DNA of 64,000 nucleotides from Owenia fusiformis. Lineage: Eukaryota > Annelida > Polychaeta > Sabellida > Oweniidae. How positions within the stretch are numbered: position 1 is the stretch's first letter; every line of letters begins with the position of its first letter. Below are positions 1,759 through 29,800 of the stretch, one piece after another. The position numbers were made by a program, and so were the translations under genes. The notes under the pieces are model-generated. The model made no database searches and was not told the DNA's origin. It saw only the letters and a list, made by a program, of their open reading frames with translations. The DNA lies in NCBI GenBank assembly GCA_903813345.2, contig CAIIXF020000009.1, forward strand, positions 20,795,759-20,859,758. Direction: 5' to 3'.

Positions 1759-1773
1759 TGAGCAGTCAGGGAG
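1759..1773 (+). CDS. CDH23: Candidate 15-nt microexon before EC1 of the cadherin
   Basis: A good acceptor (TTCATGATATTGCAG) and a consensus donor (GAG then GTATGT) bracket 15 nt. Entered in phase 1 after a G it reads V-S-S-Q-G and leaves phase 1. Both EC1 start exons begin with the same V-S-S. Being a multiple of three it could be included or skipped without changing frame. Length, phase and sites fit, but this is a prediction only. Confidence 0.35.
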
Positions 1774-2212: not shown

Positions 2213-2242
2213 CTGAAGCCTCGGAGAATAATGATAATGAAT
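2213..2242 (+). CDS. CDH23: Candidate 30-nt microexon before EC1 of the cadherin
   Basis: Acceptor TTTGTATTTCAG and donor AAT/GTATGT bracket 30 nt. Read in phase 1 it gives an acidic, Asn-rich linker (A-E-A-S-E-N-N-D-N-E) and leaves phase 1, compatible with either EC1 start exon. It would lengthen the segment between signal peptide and EC1. Short matches of this kind occur by chance, so confidence is low. Confidence 0.3.
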
Positions 2243-2768: not shown

Positions 2769-2840
2769 TGTCCAGCAACAACCCTCCAAGGTTTATTAAC
2801 TTTCCATCTGTAGCGATACAGCCTGAGGATGCCCCTGCTA
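2769..2840 (+). CDS. CDH23: CDH23 exon, EC1 start, version A
   Basis: 72 nt, phase 1 to 1, acceptor TATTCCAG and donor GTAAGT. It reads VSSNNPPRFINFPS then VAIQPEDAPA, the first strands of EC1, and continues as N-T-V-L-G in the exon at 4381. Human EC1 has the matching N-R-L-P-F-F-T-N ... S-E-D-T-P-V-G. It is one of two alternative exons. Confidence 0.8.
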
Positions 2841-5800
2841 GTAAGTGTATATGTCTAGTTATTATTTTCTCATTTTCTTTTATTCTTTCTTCTGTCTTTC
2901 TGTTTTAGTTTCTAGCCAGAAGCCACCTCGATGGGTTGGTTCTGATCCTTTTGTATATCAAACACCAGAAGATACTCCAAATAGTGAGTTATAAAAGTGT
3001 ACTTACAAGGATAGGTATCTGGGAGCTTTGAATTCCCTTATATTTGAATTCCCTGACATTTTGATCCCCCTACCCATCACTTAAATATGCACTATTCATT
3101 CGAAGAATCCTCACCATAGTTATGTAATCCTCACCATAGTTATGTTATCCTCACCATAGTTATGTAATCCACGCCATAGTTATGTAATCCTCACCATAGT
3201 TATGTAATCCTCACCATAGTTATGTAATCCTCACCATAGTTATGTTATCCTCACCATAGTTATGTAATCCTCACCATAGTTATGTAATCCTCACCATAGT
3301 TATGTAATCCTCACCATAGTTATGTAATCCTCACCATAGTTATGTTATCCTCACCATAGTTATGTTATCCTCACCATAATTATGTAATCCACACCATAGT
3401 TATGTAATCCTCACCATAGTTATGTTATCCTCACCATAGTTATGTTATCCTCACCATAGTTATGTAATCCTCACCATAGTTATGTTATCCTCACCATAGT
3501 TATGTAATCCTCACCATAGTTATGTAATCCACGCCATAGTTATGTAATCCTCACCATAGTTATGTAATCCTCACCATAGTTATGTAATCCTCACCATAGT
3601 TATGTAATCCTCACCATAGTTATGTAATCCTCACCATAGTTATGTTATCCTCACCATAGTTATGTTATCCTCACCATAATTATGTAATCCACACCATAGT
3701 TATGTCATCCTCACCATAGTTATTTTATGTTAGAACACCGGTGTTATACCAGAATCACCCACCTGTCTTTCAAAGAGTCTGTCAGTCAGTCGGCATTAGC
3801 TCCTTAAAATATGCTTTGTCTACATGCTTTAAGAGAATCACTGAACTCCTCAAGTAAACCGGAGCTTGTCATTTGCAGAATGACAATTTTCTTCAAATGG
3901 CCATTTTCTCTGACATCATCGTTGATGCAGTATTGACCAACATTATTAAAACATACAAAACTGCAAAATTGCCTTGTCAACTAACTCTGTATTCCGGGTA
4001 ATATCTCATACAATAGAAAAATGGACGTTAAATAACTTTATTATTCTGCATTACAGAAGGATAGCTCTCAGCCCTCACTTCAAAGGCTTTTATTTTTAAT
4101 TAGTGTCTCAAGATTTCTTTGTTAACATCCTAGGCGTGATTGAATTGTGAAGTCTCTTTAAGTCTATTTATATTATTTTGTTTATGGATTGTTGCAAAGC
4201 TGAAACAAAAAAGGAATTAATATATATTTTCTGAATTAGAATTACTTCCTTTATGCACTGAAAAGGAGTCATTTGAAGAAGGGAAAGCTGTATTTTCAAA
4301 GCAGTTTTTATTGGACTTTTAACACTTGAATCTCCCTTCATGTACAGGCATGTCACCTTTATATTTATATTTTCTTACAGATACTGTTCTTGGTACATTA
4401 TATGCAGAAGATGAAGATAGTTCTCAACTAACATTTGGTATTGTTGGTGACCTAGCACAAAGCATTATAAGACTCGGGCCAACCACTAGTTTAGAAAAAA
4501 TATTTCAATGTGAAATCATCCTAAAAGGGAACTTGGATCGTGAGGTAATGTTTTCATTCTTATATTATCTAATACATGTATCATTATTTCTAGGCAAGGT
4601 TTCATACTTGCCCCAGGGATTGTATTGGGAGTTTAAGAATCTGAAGTAAAGTCAAATATATTTGAGGAGAAGAGGATAATATTACATTAAGTCATATTTT
4701 AGATTCATGAAACTCTGAATTAGGATTATTTTGTGTGTTTAGTGAAATGTATCTGTACTTCATTTTCCATATTATTTGATTATACTTGCAGACTGTCCCT
4801 CGGTATTTCCTTTCTTTCTCAGTATCTGATGGCCCAAACACAGTAAGTACACGGTAATTTATCCATGGTTGTATATCGTAAACAATAATTTCAAATAAAT
4901 ATGAGTGATGCGTCACAACAAATTGAACGGGAAATAAACTGGTGGATGGCATCATAGAAAGCTAAGTGAAAGACATGAGCGTAGTGAGAAGACTGGGAAA
5001 CTTCTGCATCCTTCTTCTATTGGGTACTGAGCTGCATGCCATTCTCTTGCCTTAGCCTCATCAACTAGGTCTTGGTACTCAGCTTTGTTGAGCTGGTGCG
5101 ATATTTTCTGTCATGTCACCATCTGTATCCTCCATCACTGAGAGCTTTAGGGCAACTGCTGAGCAAGGAAGAAACATCCAACTACACTCAATGTATGGCA
5201 AATGACTGTACATTAAATCTAGGGCAACTGCTGAGAATGTAATTTGATGTACAGTCATTTGTCATGCACTGAGGGCAGTCAGATGTTTCTTCCTTGCCCC
5301 AAAATCTGAGGTTTGATGGAGTTGGTAGCAGGTCAGAGAAAGCTCTTAACTACTTTGTACTTTACATTTTCTTAAATTGTACTTTAACTTGCTTTGTTTA
5401 CATATACATGTACTCTGTACTATTATTTCTTAAGCTTGATTTTTTAAATTATTTTTCATTTAGATCCAGAAATCTGCCACCCTGTATGTCACTGATGTGA
5501 ATGACAATGCTCCTTCCTTCACCAACCTGCCCTACAGAGCTAACATTAAAGAGGTATGCTTTAGTTTCGTATGAGCATCTGCTGTTCAAAGAGAAATCAT
5601 TACTTGGATACAATGATGTCATAGTTAGAGAACAGTGAATTTCTGTTAATGACTCTCAGGTCGTCGTAACAAACTTTCTTTTTTTGATCACTAGTAATGA
5701 CATTTTAAGCTTCTTTCCAAACTACGTTTTTCACTTCAACATTCCAAAGTATTATTATAGATTATATAATAAATGTTAATGGCAGCTTAGGGTTGTTTTT

Positions 5801-11800: not shown

Positions 11801-14800
11801 TGTATACATGGCTAACACATGGGTCTGAATTGTATATACAATGTAACCACAGCTAAGGAGGAGTTACAGATGAACAATTCAAGTGGTTGATTCTTGTTCT
11901 ATATGGCTTTAACTTATCCCTAATGCTAATGTTAAATACATGGTAAAATGGCAAATTTATGATCATTATATATATTTGATAATAATACATTTGCTTTGCA
12001 GATAATGAGTGGTTCCAGATAGACAATTCCAGCGGCTGGATATCAGTAAAGAGTCACATAGACAGAGAAGAGCAAAGTATCCTGAATAACTTTGGTGTCA
12101 TCGAGTTTGATGTCTTTGTAAGTACATGTATCATTAGTAAACCAAACTGTTGCTGAATTATATATAGTACATGTACATCCGATAAATGATGAAATACCCC
12201 CTGCATTGGTGCAACCTATGACAAATCAAACCAAGATCCACCCCTCAGATAATATCTCAATGAATGTAAATGTACAACATGTTTTACATTTTACATTCAT
12301 ATGTCATCACTAGAAGTGATGACATATTTTTAGTTTCCAAGTTTTTGTGGACAGTGTTCGACGGTTGGCATTTGGAGGTCAGTGTCTGTAACAAATGGCG
12401 GGTGGGGACATTTTGCATGCCTTGCTAATATTTATAATAATAAATGAAAAGATATATTGATAAAATTTGAAAAAAGAGGATGAGACCACATTGTAATATT
12501 CTGTTCTAGGCTCAGGAGGTGACTGACACACCAATGGGGATTACAACAGCTACAGCTAAGGTGACAATCAACATCTTAGATGAGAATGACAACACACCAA
12601 CATTCTCACAGGACTGGTATAATGCAACTGTACAAGAGAACACACAGCTGCATGTTCCTATTACATTCATTCCTGCTGGACTGCAAATGGGAGTCACAGA
12701 CCTGGATGAGGTTAGTTTATTTATTTATTATACAGTTCTCATGGCTTATAGAGGTTGCCATTTGTGTCAACATTTAATATTTTTTCTCTGAGTATTGAAA
12801 GAATTTATAGTATTTTTAACACACATGACAATGATGGCGAATGCGCTAAAAATAATGACATTGAAGGATTTCTAAAAGAAATGAAGAGATTCACCCAATC
12901 TGTGAATTTAATCTATCCATTAAAACCAAATTTCAATGGATAGTGGTACATAATGGACACTGCCCCTTGCCAAATTCAGTTGTTTGTCAAATGATTCTGC
13001 TCGTTTTTCAGGGGGAAAGTGGTACCTTTGATCTAAGTGTTGAGCAGGGCACAGTTGCCTTCACTGTGTTCTCAGTTGAGCCCAACACTGTACGCAATGA
13101 TGCAACATTACTTATTCGGGTAGAAAACTCCACCTATCTTGACTATGAGCAGAGAAAGTCTGTCATGTTCCAGGTGAGAACATAATCACTGGTTTTACAC
13201 TCTTCAAAATAAAATGTTGGAACCTTTTGGAATTTTTCGAGGTTGCAACAATTTGTTGCGGAAATAGATACTACTTATCGTTGAAGAGTGGATTACCAAT
13301 GATAATAGAAATTCATCAATGAATTCTGATAGAAGTATGTGTATGTGGATCAACCTTTAGTAGTGTGAAAGTCAAAGACATAGATGTTTTACTAGGTTAG
13401 ATAAAAGATGTATTTTACTATTTTGTTATTGACTAAATTATTTATTATTCACAATTAGCATTGAAACACAGAATAATTTTTTATATTCCCCTTTCCCAGA
13501 TATGGGCCAAGGAGACAGGAACACCTGAAAAACATGAGAACTTCACTATGGTGTACTTAGAGATTGAAGACATGAATGATAACATTCCTCAGTTCACCAA
13601 GGAGGAGTATAAGACTGAGCTATATGAGAACTCACCCAAGGGGACCAATATAACAACAATTACAGCCACAGATGCTGATTCGGGGGAATTTGGCAAAATC
13701 ACATATTCCATTAGAGGCTCTGGAGCTAACATGTAAGTGCTGCTGTTTCCTCAACTGTTATCACTTGCTACATATAAATATGAGCCTGCCATTATCATAA
13801 ATGTTAATGGTTTATTATATTCAGTTAAACCTGTATATAGTGAACACTTATGGGGTCATAAAGTGTTCACTATAGATAGGTGTTCACTACAGAGAGCAGA
13901 TTTTATACAGGAGTCAATGTAAAATGTGTCTTGAAGTGGTGTATGCTATAGAGAGGTGTCCATTAAGACAAGTTTTACTGTACATAGTATACCGTATTTT
14001 ATTCTAATCTTACTTAATGCACTTGATTTTGTGTTTTAGGTTCCACATCGACCCAGACAGTGGTAACATCAGTGTTACAGTAAAAACTACAACATTATCT
14101 CAAATGTTTCTCCATTAAACATTTAACTATGACTTCAATGTTGTGTTCTAGGTTCCACATCGACCCAGACAGTGGTAACATCAGTGTGACAGTAAAAATT
14201 ACAACATTATCTCAAATGTTTCTCCATTAAACATTTAACTATGACTTCAATGTTGTGTTCTAGGTTCCACATCGACCCAGACAGTGGTAACATCAGTGTG
14301 ACAGTAAAAATTACAACATTATCTCAAATGTTTCTCCATTAAACATTTAACTATGACTTCAATGTTGTGTTTTAGGTTCCACATCGACCCAGACAGTGGT
14401 AACATCAGTGTTGCTGTAGATGCTGACTTGGACCATGACCTCCTGGACAGGGAGAAACAAGACACCTACTACCTTACCCTGCAGGCCAGGGATGGGGGAA
14501 ACCAGCGCAACACTGTACAGCTAGAGATACAGCTGCTGGATGTTAATGACAATGCACCATCTATCAGGAGGAGTAAATATGAAGCATACGTGCGAGAGAA
14601 TCAACCTACTCTTGAACGTCCTGTCATAGTTGAGGTAATTACAATACCAATACAAAGTACATGTACAGCTTTTTTACAATAATGCATGTGCATAAATTCA
14701 GTAGTTGTCAAAGGGTAATCTTCAAGTGCTTATCACTATTAGAGTATTATTAGCACACTCTAGCAGTCGCAAAAAAGACTGGGGTGGGAATATGGAACAA

Positions 14801-17800: not shown

Positions 17801-20800
17801 TCTCAGAAGTTCAAATCTGACATGGTGACATTTTGTTATGTTAATGCCTTGTTGGTCTTTCATTTCAACTGCTTGAAAAAATCACTTTTTGTGTCTACTA
17901 AGTATGTGTATGACTTGTGTATATGTGTATGAGATCTGTATGTAACAGTTTAGATGGATAGGTCAATTTGAAAATGTGCATACCCTCAGTGTCACAGAAT
18001 AGTACATAATAGGCTCTGAATAGGAGAAATGAATATATTATATTGTAGTTTAATGCTGGTAAGGTCTGATTGGACCTCACTAGTAACTGTGGTAGCCTAT
18101 CATAAGAGTTTCACTTTGAAAGCATGAAATTTGATGACTGCTCCAGGTCTGTAGCCAGCTTTTGCCAAAGGAGGTTCACAGGATTTTCAGGAGGGGTTCA
18201 CATTTGACAGCTTTGGCAAAATGGCAATTGAAAAGTGCTCAGAATGGTGAAAACTGCATGATTTTGAAAAAATTTCATTCAAGAATACTGGCTACGAGCC
18301 TGCTGCTCGGTGTTCTCAGTATTATGATTAGTGATGGTTAGACCAAAGATTATCTCTGAGTTTGGATAAAGCTCTCCAGAAACAAAATCCTACTGTTTAA
18401 AAGGAAATATACACACAAATATAACAGCCAATTGAAATATATATTGAAAAAGCTTTATCCAATCATGTTCTGTTCATCTCACCTTATTTTTGTTAAACAT
18501 TTCTCTATGTACATGTAGAAATAAAGGGAGGCTGAGATAATATACAACCATATTAGAATTATTTTGTAGTTGTACAATTTAGTGTCTTATACTTCCACTT
18601 GACTGTTTCTATGCAATGATCAGTGTCTGGGTATTTGTCTTTGAATAACATTGTATGGTAAGGGAAGGCTGGGTTGGATCTTCCAGGGGAAGAACTTTCC
18701 AGCGTTTCATCTGTGTATTCCTTATAGCCTTCAATGTTTAACCTTCCTTCATGAATCATCTTAGTTTTCATCTCGTGTGTGTATACCTTCTCAGCCATCT
18801 GCATTCGTACACATTGAGGATTTTCTGGTTCGATTAAGCATTGTTTAGTCCAGTAGTCAAGTAGTTTGTTGAGCTTTGTGACTTCTCGAACCATGCGGTC
18901 TTCTCCAAAGATTTTAAGTTTTTTCCAGAATGTTTTGTTGTAGTGTTGGAACATAAGAGCATCGGCTTTGTTCCATTTGTTTATTAGACCTTTATAGTGT
19001 TTGTTGGTTATTTCCTCATGTTGGCGTTCTACTTTATTGAAATACACAACATCCTCTAATTCCCAGTTTAGCATACCAGCCAATAAGACAAGACTCTCTT
19101 TCATGTAATCTGTTATCATTATAAAATTAAAATCCCGATCAATTTCAGCAATTTTCTCCTGAATTGCATAATCATCATCCAAATCTGGGAGTTCTAATCC
19201 AAACTCGAACATCATTTCACTTTTGCTTGAAACATTCCAGCCTCCACATAGTTTCGTTGTTGTAAATTCATCTAAGTGATCTAGAAAATAAAACATTTTC
19301 TGAGATTGTTCTATGGTTTTTAATCCGTAGCATTTACCAAATCCATGATAGTTAAAACCAGATGGAAACTGAGTGTGAGGACTTCTTATTGTCGTTGTAA
19401 AGAATGTGTCCTTTGGCATGAGTTTTCTGACACTTGTGTGATATCTCATATGGAAACATAAAACATTGTATTCGTGGTAATTTTCTGAGAGAGGAATAAG
19501 GCACTTCTCCGTAAAAACATTGGGGTAGCATACTCGATGTCGCCAAAATGGCAGTGCTAGTGTAAGGTTAGCGATGTCAGCATGACGGAAGAATATATTC
19601 TGCACTGTACTACTTGCAGTTTTGTGTAGTTTTAAGAAAAATACATTTTTTCGTTTCTGTTTAATGACTTCTTCTGGAGGATCAAGTTGTGGAAATATAG
19701 GTTCATTGATATCTAAACCATTACCATCATTTTCAATGTCTTCATCTTGTCTATGATCTCCAATATCTTCTTCTTTTCCATCTTCAATGTTTTCATCTTT
19801 TCTATCTTCATCAATGTCTTTTTCATTTCTATCTTCTTTATCAGCAGTATCTTGATCATTTTTGTTTTTCAACAATATTGATATGAATCCATCAAGTCTT
19901 TCCTTTTCATCTTCTGCTGAATATTGTACATCCACTTTAAGCTGTTCATTATGTGTAGATTCCTCCCTTGATTGCTGGGATTTTGGTTGGCCAACTGTTT
20001 CCATCAATTCATCAGGCTTGTTGTCAATCTTACTGATGAAAACAAGTAGGAAAACACATATAAATACAAGGAGTAGCATTAGCTGCTTCCTGTTGCAGAC
20101 CATATCCCTCTTGAACATATCTAATATATATAGAAATGTGACTCTATGACGTCTCGGCGGATGTAGAAATCTTCCTAACTGAAGCACATTTGTGCCTTGG
20201 TTCTCCTGCTGAGTAGTTGATGCAACTTATTTTTTATTTTAATATCCAGGTCAATTTTTCAATACTTGGTTTCAATTTAATTTCAATGAGAGTTGTTTCA
20301 TTAGGATAAAATAATTGGTATATGAAAAGGTCAAATTTCATATTATTGGGCGAAAAAAATTGATCAATATTTAAAACAGCAAGCTGGCACACTTTAAGTG
20401 TAATATATCATTTGCCATTTGGAGCATTAGAATAGACTGTGATTAATTTATACCCTTTGTTTCTAATGAAATGGTTGAATTAATGTAACTGACACAATGT
20501 TAGGCTGACCTCTAAATTGTACTTACACATAAGGTACCAGAATCCCAATTGCAAAATTGACATATCATGTATTATAAGAATTATTACTCATCTTTTGAAT
20601 TTAATATACAACCTCTATATTTCAAAAGTCATAGATTGAATCAATGATAATAATGTCTTACAATAATATACATGTAGATAGACTTTGAAATTTTGAGTTG
20701 CTGTTTTCAATAAAGGGTGAAGGGGAATTAGTCTTAAATTCAACCATTTAAGAAATAAGGAAGAGACTTTGATTTTCACATAGTAGATCTCGCTTGCTGT

Positions 20801-23800: not shown

Positions 23801-26800
23801 ATAAACACTAGTATCATTTAGGAGGAGTACCTTAAGGAAAAACAAGAAATTATTAGTTGTGCATGTAAAATCATATCATACTGGAGAAAATCTATTTGTA
23901 AACCAAGCCTCGGACAAGCCAAATTAAAGCATTCAAGATAACATTCTTAACTTGAGTATATCAGTTTAACATTCATATACCAGGTTGATCAAAAGTACTG
24001 AAGAATTTCATATCACAACATCACATCCTATCGTATTTATATGTACATGAAAATATATATGACTTCAGGGAGTTATCACAGTGGCTGGTGAACTAGACAG
24101 GGAGACCAAGGCTGATTACACCATCAGTGTTGAGGCAAGAGATAGCCCCGACTCTCCCGAGAACGAACAACGTATTACCTCCCGTACAATGATGATCCGT
24201 CTCCGGGACGTCAATGATTTCACTCCCAAATTTGCTAAATCAAATTACAATGCAAGCTCTGTAGCGGAGAATGCTGCTACTGGCACTCAAGTTATCACAA
24301 TCACGGCTATTGATTTAGATGAGGGAGAGAATGCAAGAATTGTGTATTCACTGAATCAAACAAGACAAAATATGACGGCCGGCTTATTTGAAGTTGTTCC
24401 TGATACTGGAACCATAAAAGTTGCGTCAACTCTAAGAACGACACTGGGTTGGGTTTATATGACGCTAGTGGCAACAGATAGTGGTACTCCTGCTCTGTCT
24501 AGCTTCACAACTGTACATGTCTACATTGAAGATGTGAATGATAATGCGCCTGTGTTCACACATCCACCAGCCAATGAAACTATATTTGTCTTAGAGGTAT
24601 TCATTTCTCTCTTATAATTCTCTTCATTAATTTTTAAAATGATTCCTTTCATTTTAAATACTGAAAATTACTCTATATTTACAGATTGACCAAAACATAA
24701 TATCAACTTTAATGTTCTGATTAAGAGTCTCTGCATGAAGTTAACAACCATGCTCATTAAGGACATGCACTTGGAAACAATACTCTTGGCTATATATATT
24801 TGGCTACTACACATGGTGCACATGAAGTCTCTTCAATTTCAGTTTGTGTTAAATGTAAAGAGATTTTATAGTTACCCTGTATTATAGGCGATTTTACTCA
24901 TATGAGATCATACTGAAAACAGAATTCTATAATGGTCTTAATAGAAAAGCTAACCCTGGTTATGCATGTTTATTTTGTGGGGAAACTTATAGAAATTATT
25001 TTCTTTTAGAACATCACAATTGGCAGTTTCATCACCCAAGTGAAAGCAAAGGACAATGACATTGGTGTCAATGGAGAAGTGGAATATACATTCATAAAAG
25101 ATGAACCAATCAAAGATTACAAAAAGTTTAACCTGGACAAAAAGTCTGGGAATATTACACTCAAAGAGCGGATCAGCAGAGAGGACCAGGAAATCTACTT
25201 TGTAAGTAGATATGCATTTATGGGCAGAACTGTCATTAAACAAATCTGTTGTTGTTGTTATTATACCATTTTGCTTTAGAAATACTACAGTGTATGTATA
25301 TACAAGAGACTAAAAACATGTTACCATCAAATCACAATTGAGCACTCACAAGCATTGATTATTTAAAAGCATGCACGTTCGGTCCTATTACAACCCCTTC
25401 AATTTGGATATTGAATGTGAAACCTTATAAAATTTCACTTGAAATCCAATAAAATCACACATATTTTTCTAGTTGTCTATCCTGGCCTCAGACAAGGGTG
25501 ATCCGGTGCGAACAGCTAGAAGACCCCTTAACATAAAAGCAATAGATATAAATGACAACCCACCATCATTTGATCGTAGAAAATACCCAACACCCTATAG
25601 CCTTCAGGTACAAGAGGAAAAGGCCAACATCACTGTTGGTAATCTAAGTCTGGCCACTGATCCTGATGAAGGAGTCAATGCTGAGATATGTTATTACATA
25701 GTTGGTGAGTAAAACATGTGATGAAATATTAAATCATGATTAAGTTTAACTGAAACTTATTTTTTGAGATGTTCCCTGTTGGATGGATTTTGACACTCCC
25801 AAAAAAGCTCATGATTAAAGTGGAGATAATCAAATCTGTTAAAATATTTTCAATGGATGCGAGGCCAGATATGAGTCATGTAATTAATAAGTGATTTGTA
25901 TTAAGCAAAACCTGTTCAAATATACATTCTATAAAAATGTATCTTTCCTAAACATGACATGTGTTACACACAGGTGGAGACCCTCCGAAAGAAAGAGCAA
26001 AATTCCATCTGAACCAAACGAGTGGAATCCTCACATTACAAAACAGCATAGACAGAGAGACTACAGCGCTCGTCACCCTAATTATCAAGGCCAATGAGAA
26101 ACAGCTTCTCTCTGATGGCATCAGAACATGCGACAATCAGGAGTTTGTCAACAAGTCTATAGAATTCAATGAGGAAGATACGAGTTTGTTGAAGGTTCAG
26201 GTAGAGATTCTGGATATTGATGATAATCCTCCAAAGTTTACTAAAACAGGGAAATATTTCACCGCTGGTGTTACTAAGGACACACAAGCTGGGGAGCCTA
26301 TACTAGATTTCAAGGTAGGGGAGATAAAAACTGTATTGTTTCATCACCATCATTACATGTTAAATCAAAATAGAAGTTCAGATGCCTGAATGGCAATAGA
26401 GCCTAATGACAGTAATATTTGAATGTAAAATATTAGTAGTTTATGCTGATCATGTTCCCCTGTTCCAATGCAATTCCACATCATTGTATAGCATTGTAGA
26501 CAAATGTGTAGAATGACTTGTATGTTCTAATCCATCATTTGACTTGACTCCTACTGCATAGCAATATCTAAACACTGCTGTTTATTTCCAGGATTATACA
26601 TTTGACCCAGATATAGGGCAGAACAGTATTATGAGGTTCTACATAGAAGAGCCTATCAATATGACAGGGAGTTTGCGCAGTGAACTGAATGGCGAGAAGC
26701 CGTTCCGTCTAGACCAGAATGAGGGTGTGCTGTACACCAATGTCTTCTTCAAGGACACCATGGTTGGATTCTTTGACTTCTTTGTGTTTGTCAATGGCAC

Positions 26801-29800
26801 CAACCCAGGCCTGGGCAACTTTGATAAAGCTACAGTGTCAGTAAGTATAATGTGCCATCTATATGCACACGGTGGTGTATACAAAGTATATGACAAAAAG
26901 CAGGGCTTTAGCGTGTATCTGTCTAATCATGCCATTCTTTCACTGTCTAATATAGACATGGATTTAGAAGTGGATTTTGTCTTTCTCGTATTATTTGCAA
27001 CTGAACGCTGCATCTTGTATGAATACAGTTTCAATAATCAAAATAATCAAAGATCATTGTATGATATGTATCAGTATATCTATATTCTATGTTTCTTTGT
27101 TCCTTTTTAAGATCTATCTGTTAAATGAGAACCAGCAGGTCAGAGTAGAGTTCCGTTCTACCCCACAAGAGGTGGGACTTATCAAGGATATATTTGCAGA
27201 GTGAGTGCCATTTTCGATATCATCTAATGCCAAAATCTTTATATCTGATGATCCCTTCAGATAAAAGTAAATGACCAGCTACATGCTGGATTTGAAATCA
27301 GCTGGATCTCGAATGTGCTTACTCAGTCGGCATGGTCAGACATCCATGTGACAAACCATTAACATACTTAATATTTATGAGGTTATTGATACAGTCGTCT
27401 CACAAAACATTTTATGTTGCATAAAAAACATTTCCGCATGACTCTTACAAGCACAAAAGTACAAAGTAAAAGAAATATACATGTAAAAAAAAAGAAGAAA
27501 ATGGAAAACACAACAAATCATCATACTTGTTTTGCCCATAGCCAGCTTTTACCAGGAGGGGGAGCTTTTTTCCAGGGGGGAGCTTTTTCACAATTTTGGC
27601 TAAAAATCGTGCAAAAAACTCTCAGAATGGTGAAAAACTGCATGATTTTGAAAGAATTTCTGGCAGGGGGAGCTTCCGTTCCGCTCCCCCAGCTCCCCCT
27701 CTGGCTACGGGCCTGCTTGTATACCATTTAAGATTACTCTAAGATTGCAAACACATAAATAAATGGTGAACCATACACTTTTAGGTTCCTTGGTAACATT
27801 ACTGGTTGGAGGATCAATGTTGATCAGATACAGACTCACAAAGATGCAAAGGGGAATGCTGATGACCTCAAGTAAGTCGATAATGATATGTTATTATGTC
27901 ACCACCATAAGAATGACACATTGTTGTGGTCTCCAACTTTTTTATGGATGGTGTTTGGTGGTTTGTTTCGGCAGTTTGCATTCAGTGTCTGTAACAAATG
28001 GTAGGTGGTGAAATTTTGCATGATAATGCATTGTTTAACATATTTTGATTTTTCAACTTCTGTTATATGAAGTGTGCACGTAATATGAATTTGCAAATTA
28101 AGTCAAATATATCTGAAGTAAATAACATAAAGTAGAATTTTTGTAACGTTTATTGAAATAATTATGATTCCATTTTTGTTTCAGAACTGATATGTTCATC
28201 CATGCCATAGATAAAGATGGAAATATTGTGGATGCTACACTCTTAGTTCAGTAAGTGAAATATATACACGTATCAACTCACATATCAGGTTGATTCAGTA
28301 ATTCAGTTGTTCCAACATCTAGTCCCAATGTGTAACATAATATTCTGAGTAACACAATATACATTATACTATATGTTTTCTAATCAGGGAATTTGATACA
28401 ATAGAATCTGTAAAGATGAAACACCTTTGCTTCCTTAAAATATTGGGAGATGTCTCAGTTTGAATATTGTAAAATAAATCATTGTTGTTTTCAGGAAAGT
28501 AGATGAGAACTCTTTAGCTTTGAATGAGTTCTTCAGGAGATACAATGTTATAAAAGTTGTGGTAAGTTTCTTGAATTATACAACATTTCATTAAAAAAAT
28601 CTCAAACCAAACTGGACTCCCAAATCTTGTCTCGAGATCTTGCGCCCTGTGAATCCCATCGCTTGTCCTTGTAATACAGTACTTATGACAGAATATTTTT
28701 AGAATAGAATAGCATACTTTACATTACATGTATTGCTTAATTTGCTTATGTCTTGTAGGAGAAAGTCCAGGCAGTGAGGGCTGGATCCACAGAGGGTGAT
28801 CTATTGTTGGCCCTCATCCTAGTTTCTGCAGTACTTGGCTTTGTGTGCCTTATATTATGCATTGTATTCCTAACATGTAGGAAAAAGTGAGTATACATGA
28901 TGTAACAATACAGTTTCACTTACTCCTTTACACTCACATAAAAAATAAAATAGATTAATAGATGGTTTTTAGTGGAAAGGTCAGAGAATTTCAAAATTTT
29001 ATCAAAAATGAGTAAGATAGCTCCAGGGAAATTTAGAATTATGATAAATGGCTGGTAAAAGTTGATAAAAATAACACATGTGATTAGGGAATTTCATGCT
29101 TGAATGAGTAAACAAGGTCAAAGTGAGGGAATATCAATATGAAAACGTTGTGGCAACCCTTTACGTTGGATTTGATACAAACGTAGCCTGGCAATAACTA
29201 GTGAATCAGTCCTTAGATGAGTCCAGCTTGTAAGTTGTAAATGTATTTATTTATTCTTCCAGATATAAGAGGAAGATAAGAGCTGCAACTGCAATGGCAT
29301 TTGGTGAGTACCATTCTTCTTTGTCTTTTTGTCCTTTTGCATTATCGTTTTCTCCTAGATGGCAAAGTTCAAATTGTTCAAGTTATTTCTGTAGATCTGA
29401 CATCTTTATGCATGAATATGCACTTGTTTTAGTGGAAAGCAACTGGGTGTTAAATTCTGTGATTCTTAATAACTCTATACTTCACTTTATTGCAACCAGG
29501 AAATATTAATACAGCTTCAACAAATGGTAAGTTATAGAAGTGTAGTTTGTTGTACATGTCTAAATTGTTGTTTTTCTATACTGATCTGTAGCCAGGATTT
29601 TACTGGAGGTCATTTATAGTCACAGAGAACCTCACACTGTCTTTGAGCCAGTTATGTTGTTATGTAGACGGAACTTTCAGTTCACTTATGGGATTAGCCA
29701 TACACTCTTGTTATGGGTCTGTTACTGTTACATTAGAAATACCTGGTAATAGTTATCCCATCGAACGAAGTTCGGAGGGATATAGGGAACGCCTCCGTCC

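Follow-up and report, generated by a model that had tools for sequence, protein, structure and literature searches.

A tandem-duplicated EC1 tip exon, probably used in a mutually exclusive manner, in a CDH23-like cadherin gene of Owenia fusiformis

The CDH23-like gene and its tip exons

The window, a 64,000-nt stretch (C9:20795759-20859758) of the 498-Mb assembly, contains a large cadherin gene (Pfam Cadherin, 3.9e-182) whose first coding exon lies just upstream of it. The gene model comprises 33 exons, with exons A and B counted separately; its phases are consistent, it is free of stops, and it encodes at least 1764 aa, in which a signal peptide and ∼14 EC repeats are followed by a membrane-adjacent domain, a TM segment, and the beginning of a cytoplasmic tail (Table 1).

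Table 1. Features of the CDH23-like gene and of its 5′ region, in window coordinates.
Feature	Position	Strand	Description
Candidate microexon, 15 nt	1759-1773	+	phase 1/1, VSSQG; would lengthen the N-terminus
Candidate microexon, 30 nt	2213-2242	+	phase 1/1, AEASENNDNE
Exon A	2769-2840	+	72 nt, phase 1/1; putative alternative tip exon, canonical; VSS, then NNPPRFINFPSVAIQPEDAPA
A-B intron	2841-2908	+	68 nt
Exon B	2909-2983	+	75 nt, phase 1/1; putative alternative tip exon, divergent; VSS, then QKPPRWVGSDPFVYQTPEDTPN
E3, common acceptor exon	4381-4544	+	most of the remaining EC1 (NTVLGTLYAEDED...NLDRE), phase 1/0
E4-E32	4792-29526	+	end of EC1 to EC14, then membrane-adjacent region, TM, start of tail
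Membrane-adjacent region	about 26592-28561	+	within E4-E32
TM exon	28759-28886	+	within E4-E32

The affinities of the gene were assessed from both ends of the protein and from its introns. EC1 is closest to that of CDH23, with an extended N-terminus and, as in vertebrate CDH23, no classical Trp at position 2; the best full-length match of EC1-2 was zebrafish CDH23 EC1-3 (5w4t). The membrane-adjacent region, which precedes a TM segment as in CDH23, was found at a single locus in the genome and matched CDH23 (8tri) at 9.8e-22, compared with 0.0027 for PCDH15. When the repeats were compared one by one with mouse CDH23, EC1-3 appeared to correspond to mouse EC1-3 and EC7-14 to be collinear with the C-terminal vertebrate repeats. 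The early introns have phases 1,0,0,0 and agree in phase and nearly in spacing with the human CDH23 introns at c.145 (phase 1), c.288, c.336, and c.429 (phase 0) (PMC6826400); thus, the shared 3′ boundary of A and B falls at the exact end of the human tip exon, at the same phase-1 position. The gene nevertheless encodes only ∼14 EC repeats instead of the 27 of the vertebrate form and is therefore named CDH23-like here. The orthology with CDH23 proposed in an earlier, sequence-only reading is likely in view of EC1, the membrane-adjacent domain, and the introns, with CDHR2/PCDH24 as a possible alternative identity. The latter shares an elongated N-terminus and a membrane-adjacent domain with the gene described here and has a calcium site 0 (PMC8691648), but it has 9 EC repeats and gave a weaker EC1 match (39.7 vs 48.3 bits). 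A mouse PCDH15 membrane-adjacent query had no match in the genome, which is uninformative about a PCDH15 partner.

Three further features of the gene were recorded. A 27-nt microexon of phase 1/1 encodes part of the cytoplasmic tail (29500-29526). A 112-bp tandem repeat (14029-14411; 3.4 copies) duplicates the E14 acceptor and the first bases of that exon. Several 3′ splice sites thus compete, and use of those lying upstream leads into a stop. On the minus strand, an intronless 555-aa galactose-3-O-sulfotransferase-like ORF (18559-20226) lies antisense within the E18-E19 intron.

The first coding exon (window positions -451..-400) encodes MNHFTIQTAIFMVTIAT followed by a single G and has the donor GTGAGA. 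Because this signal exon (E1) ends in phase 1 with that G, exons A (VSSNNPPRFINFPSVAIQPEDAPA) and B (VSSQKPPRWVGSDPFVYQTPEDTPN) both start with V-S-S, and the joined products read ...FMVTIAT-VSS-NNPPRF... and ...FMVTIAT-VSS-QKPPRW..., respectively. Both exons have good GT-AG sites, with splice scores within the range of the other exons of the gene, and N-T-V-L-G at 4381 is the splice target of either one. The gene model thereby confirmed what had been read from the bare sequence, namely two adjacent exons of 72 and 75 nt and phase 1/1 with V-S-S starts, a 68-nt intron, and a common N-T-V-L-G junction. Under the -3/-1 rule for signal peptidase, V at -3 and S at -1 are suitable residues, and V-S-S fits the end of the signal peptide (-3 to -1), with a predicted cleavage site carried by each exon. 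The predicted mature N-terminus would be N in the case of A and Q in the case of B, near the start of the solved vertebrate CDH23 tips. The intron between B and E3 contains a minisatellite of 31 copies of a 20-bp unit (3106-3723).

Duplication, constraint, and the short intron

Exons A and B are adjacent, similar in length, equal in phase, and homologous, as in a mutually exclusive pair. Their alignment score was 55, against a mean of 19.7 (sd 4.2) for shuffled sequences, and 0 of 5000 shuffles reached 55, so their likeness is well beyond chance. They share 13 of 25 residues (52%) and 55% of their nucleotides, with 60%, 68%, and 36% identity at first, second, and third codon positions, respectively, and nine of the 13 shared residues are encoded by different codons. 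Neutral decay to the same divergence would be expected to leave a mean of 6.3 shared residues, with 13 reached at P 5e-5, an excess suggesting that both copies have probably been kept as protein; A and B are thus probably ancient duplicates under purifying selection. No further copy of the tip exon was found in the 144 kb examined. Relative to A, B carries N to Q and F to W substitutions and an altered strand, and it lacks the site-0 Asn. Homology, splice sites, and constraint together ruled out B as intronic noise.

Functional introns shorter than 68 nt occur in some animals; here, the A-B intron was the shortest among about 115 introns examined. The other 31 introns of the cadherin gene are all at least 196 nt, and profile matches to individual exons of myosin, TCP1, and kinesin genes elsewhere in the genome gave estimates of no less than 118 nt for 83 introns (median 318); WD40 exons proved uninformative on intron size. 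Estimates from profile gaps can overlook very short introns, but the translations of two ambiguous cases revealed no ultra-short intron. Candidate branch points in the A-B intron, predicted with a simple consensus, lie 31 nt (CTCAT, the best) and 41 nt (TTTAT) from the A donor. Both distances fall below the 50 nt under which potential steric interference was considered in human MXE work (PMC5740500). With a branch point so placed in an intron of this length, joining of A to B would be disfavoured, and steric exclusion of one exon by the other is likely. Candidates for docking/selector RNA pairing were also sought and rejected: between 2600 and 4381, inverted repeats are few and confined to positions from 3375 onward, and none is near A or B.

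The V-S-S motif provides a further line of evidence, in that it is retained in A and B with different codons and depends on the G of the signal exon; B spliced after A would instead begin with I-S-S. The motif in B is therefore most meaningful with the signal exon directly upstream, which fits splicing of E1 to B. E1-A-E3, E1-B-E3, E1-A-B-E3, and E1-E3 are all in frame, so exclusion is not imposed by the reading frame alone. Taken together, the short intron, V-S-S, and purifying selection support the proposal that the EC1 tip exon of a CDH23-like gene was duplicated in tandem, in a layout that makes exclusive use likely.

A proposed exon pair and its alternatives

We put at roughly three in four the probability that A and B form a tandem-duplicated, mutually exclusive pair encoding the mature N-terminus and first EC1 beta-strand of the CDH23-like cadherin, and we hold their mutually exclusive use to be just as probable. 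In such a pair, the signal-peptide exon would join either A or B, and the chosen exon would complete the signal peptide with V-S-S and go on to encode its own mature tip before splicing into the shared EC1 exon at 4381. The 68-nt intron, with its branch point about 31-41 nt from the A donor, would disfavour a junction of A with B. Use of A would yield the ancestral tip of the CDH23 type, including the asparagine of site 0, and use of B a different tip; the two may differ in tip chemistry and adhesion.

Three other readings were weighed against this one, and they differ in the role given to B and to the surrounding intron. Exon A might be the sole working tip exon and B a duplicate rarely or never used, given that A resembles the zebrafish CDH23 tip NQPPRF (score 50, P<0.0005) and B does so weakly (score 28, P 0.03); however, the good splice sites of B, its open frame, and an amino-acid conservation far above neutral decay make this unlikely. 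Usual inclusion of both exons one after the other, so that EC1 would carry a doubled N-terminal strand, would preserve the frame because both exons are of phase 1/1, but it is highly improbable: the 68-nt intron is outside the range of this genome, V-S-S in B would become I-S-S, and a second strand-A segment with its own P-E-D-x-P motif would not suit the EC fold as established for cadherin repeats.

Alternative use without strict exclusion, within a complex N-terminal splicing hotspot that has cassette microexons and may skip both tips, is a more serious but still tentative possibility, and it overlaps with the mutually exclusive pair rather than excluding it. A scan of the 4.8 kb from E1 to E3 for phase-1/1 exons returned exactly four candidates, namely A, B, and two microexons. 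Two or more microexon-like candidates arose by chance in 1.5% of Markov simulations, the background being about 0.31 short candidates per 4.78 kb, which corresponds to about 0.2 for the 3.2-kb E1-A intron. The 15-nt candidate, like A and B, begins with V-S-S, as did 0 of 90 background candidates, and with the 30-nt candidate the signal peptide would be cleaved after A-T-A and the N-terminus would gain an acidic extension. Against the hotspot, the microexons have modest statistical support, and one of them has an acceptor score below the range of the known exons of the gene, while the other has a weak donor; both candidates are regarded as leads rather than findings.

Tip function and comparison with known systems

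If A and B are indeed a mutually exclusive pair, the swap would fall on the N-terminal strand of EC1. In CDH23 and PCDH24, calcium site 0 is formed by an N-terminal Asn together with DXDXD and XDX motifs and closes the N-terminal strand (PMC8691648). Here, A supplies Asn and B Gln, whereas the common exons carry D-E-D-S-S in place of DXDXD, and S-D-G, so that site 0 is perhaps weak already. The heterophilic handshake of the tip link involves about 30 residues across EC1-2 of each protein (PMC7870652), and the N-terminal strand is thus only one part of the grip. Exchange of the strand could alter both site 0 and the handshake, and functional switching between A and B is plausible, with a possible effect on partner choice. 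A fuller scheme is put forward as speculative: in a splice-coded switch, each exon would bring a separate signal-peptidase site and a separate mature N-terminus, possibly with microexon extensions, and one isoform would bind in a CDH23-like manner, whereas in the other site 0 would be altered and binding would involve another partner or another homophilic mode. An analogy between the Trp of B and the classical Trp2 strand-swap residue was considered and found unsupported, the B residue following Pro-Pro at the place of the Phe of A.

Splicing is not known to vary the CDH23 tip in vertebrates, and the exon pairs of arthropod N-cadherin (CadN) are not known to exchange the part of EC1 that holds the signal-cleavage site and the mature N-terminus. 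Reviewed vertebrate CDH23 variants arise from alternative promoters and from inclusion of exon 68, with no swapped tip exon (PMC10018040), and the papers searched gave no earlier description of a CDH23-type gene with an exchangeable EC1 tip. Mutually exclusive exons are already known in cadherins; CadN, likewise a large cadherin gene with mutually exclusive tandem exons, has kept such exons for >400 million years, but it is another gene than the CDH23-like one (PMC2655722). If the tip swap is real, cells may choose between two adhesive tips, tip-link-type adhesion would be tunable through splicing, and the locus would offer a natural experiment on the N-terminal residues that determine calcium site 0, the choice of partner, and the strength of the bond.

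Tandem exon alternatives apparently also occur in the muscle myosin heavy chain gene (Mhc) of the same genome; the introns between these alternatives, in contrast, measure about 169-1784 nt, which makes steric exclusion an unlikely mechanism there. In this muscle-type gene (C9:37985001-37995000, minus strand), one exon of about 157 nt (phase 0 to 1), which encodes T[YF]SGLFC..INPY..LPIY..., is present in 12 tandem copies; the copies are mostly diverged and open, and the array resembles a mutually exclusive cluster of very large size. Elsewhere in the assembly, a kinesin motor exon is present in about 18 near-identical tandem copies with a 159-bp period (C2:23266359-23269174), and a WD40 exon in several tandem copies with a 94-bp period (C7:38703569-38704128).
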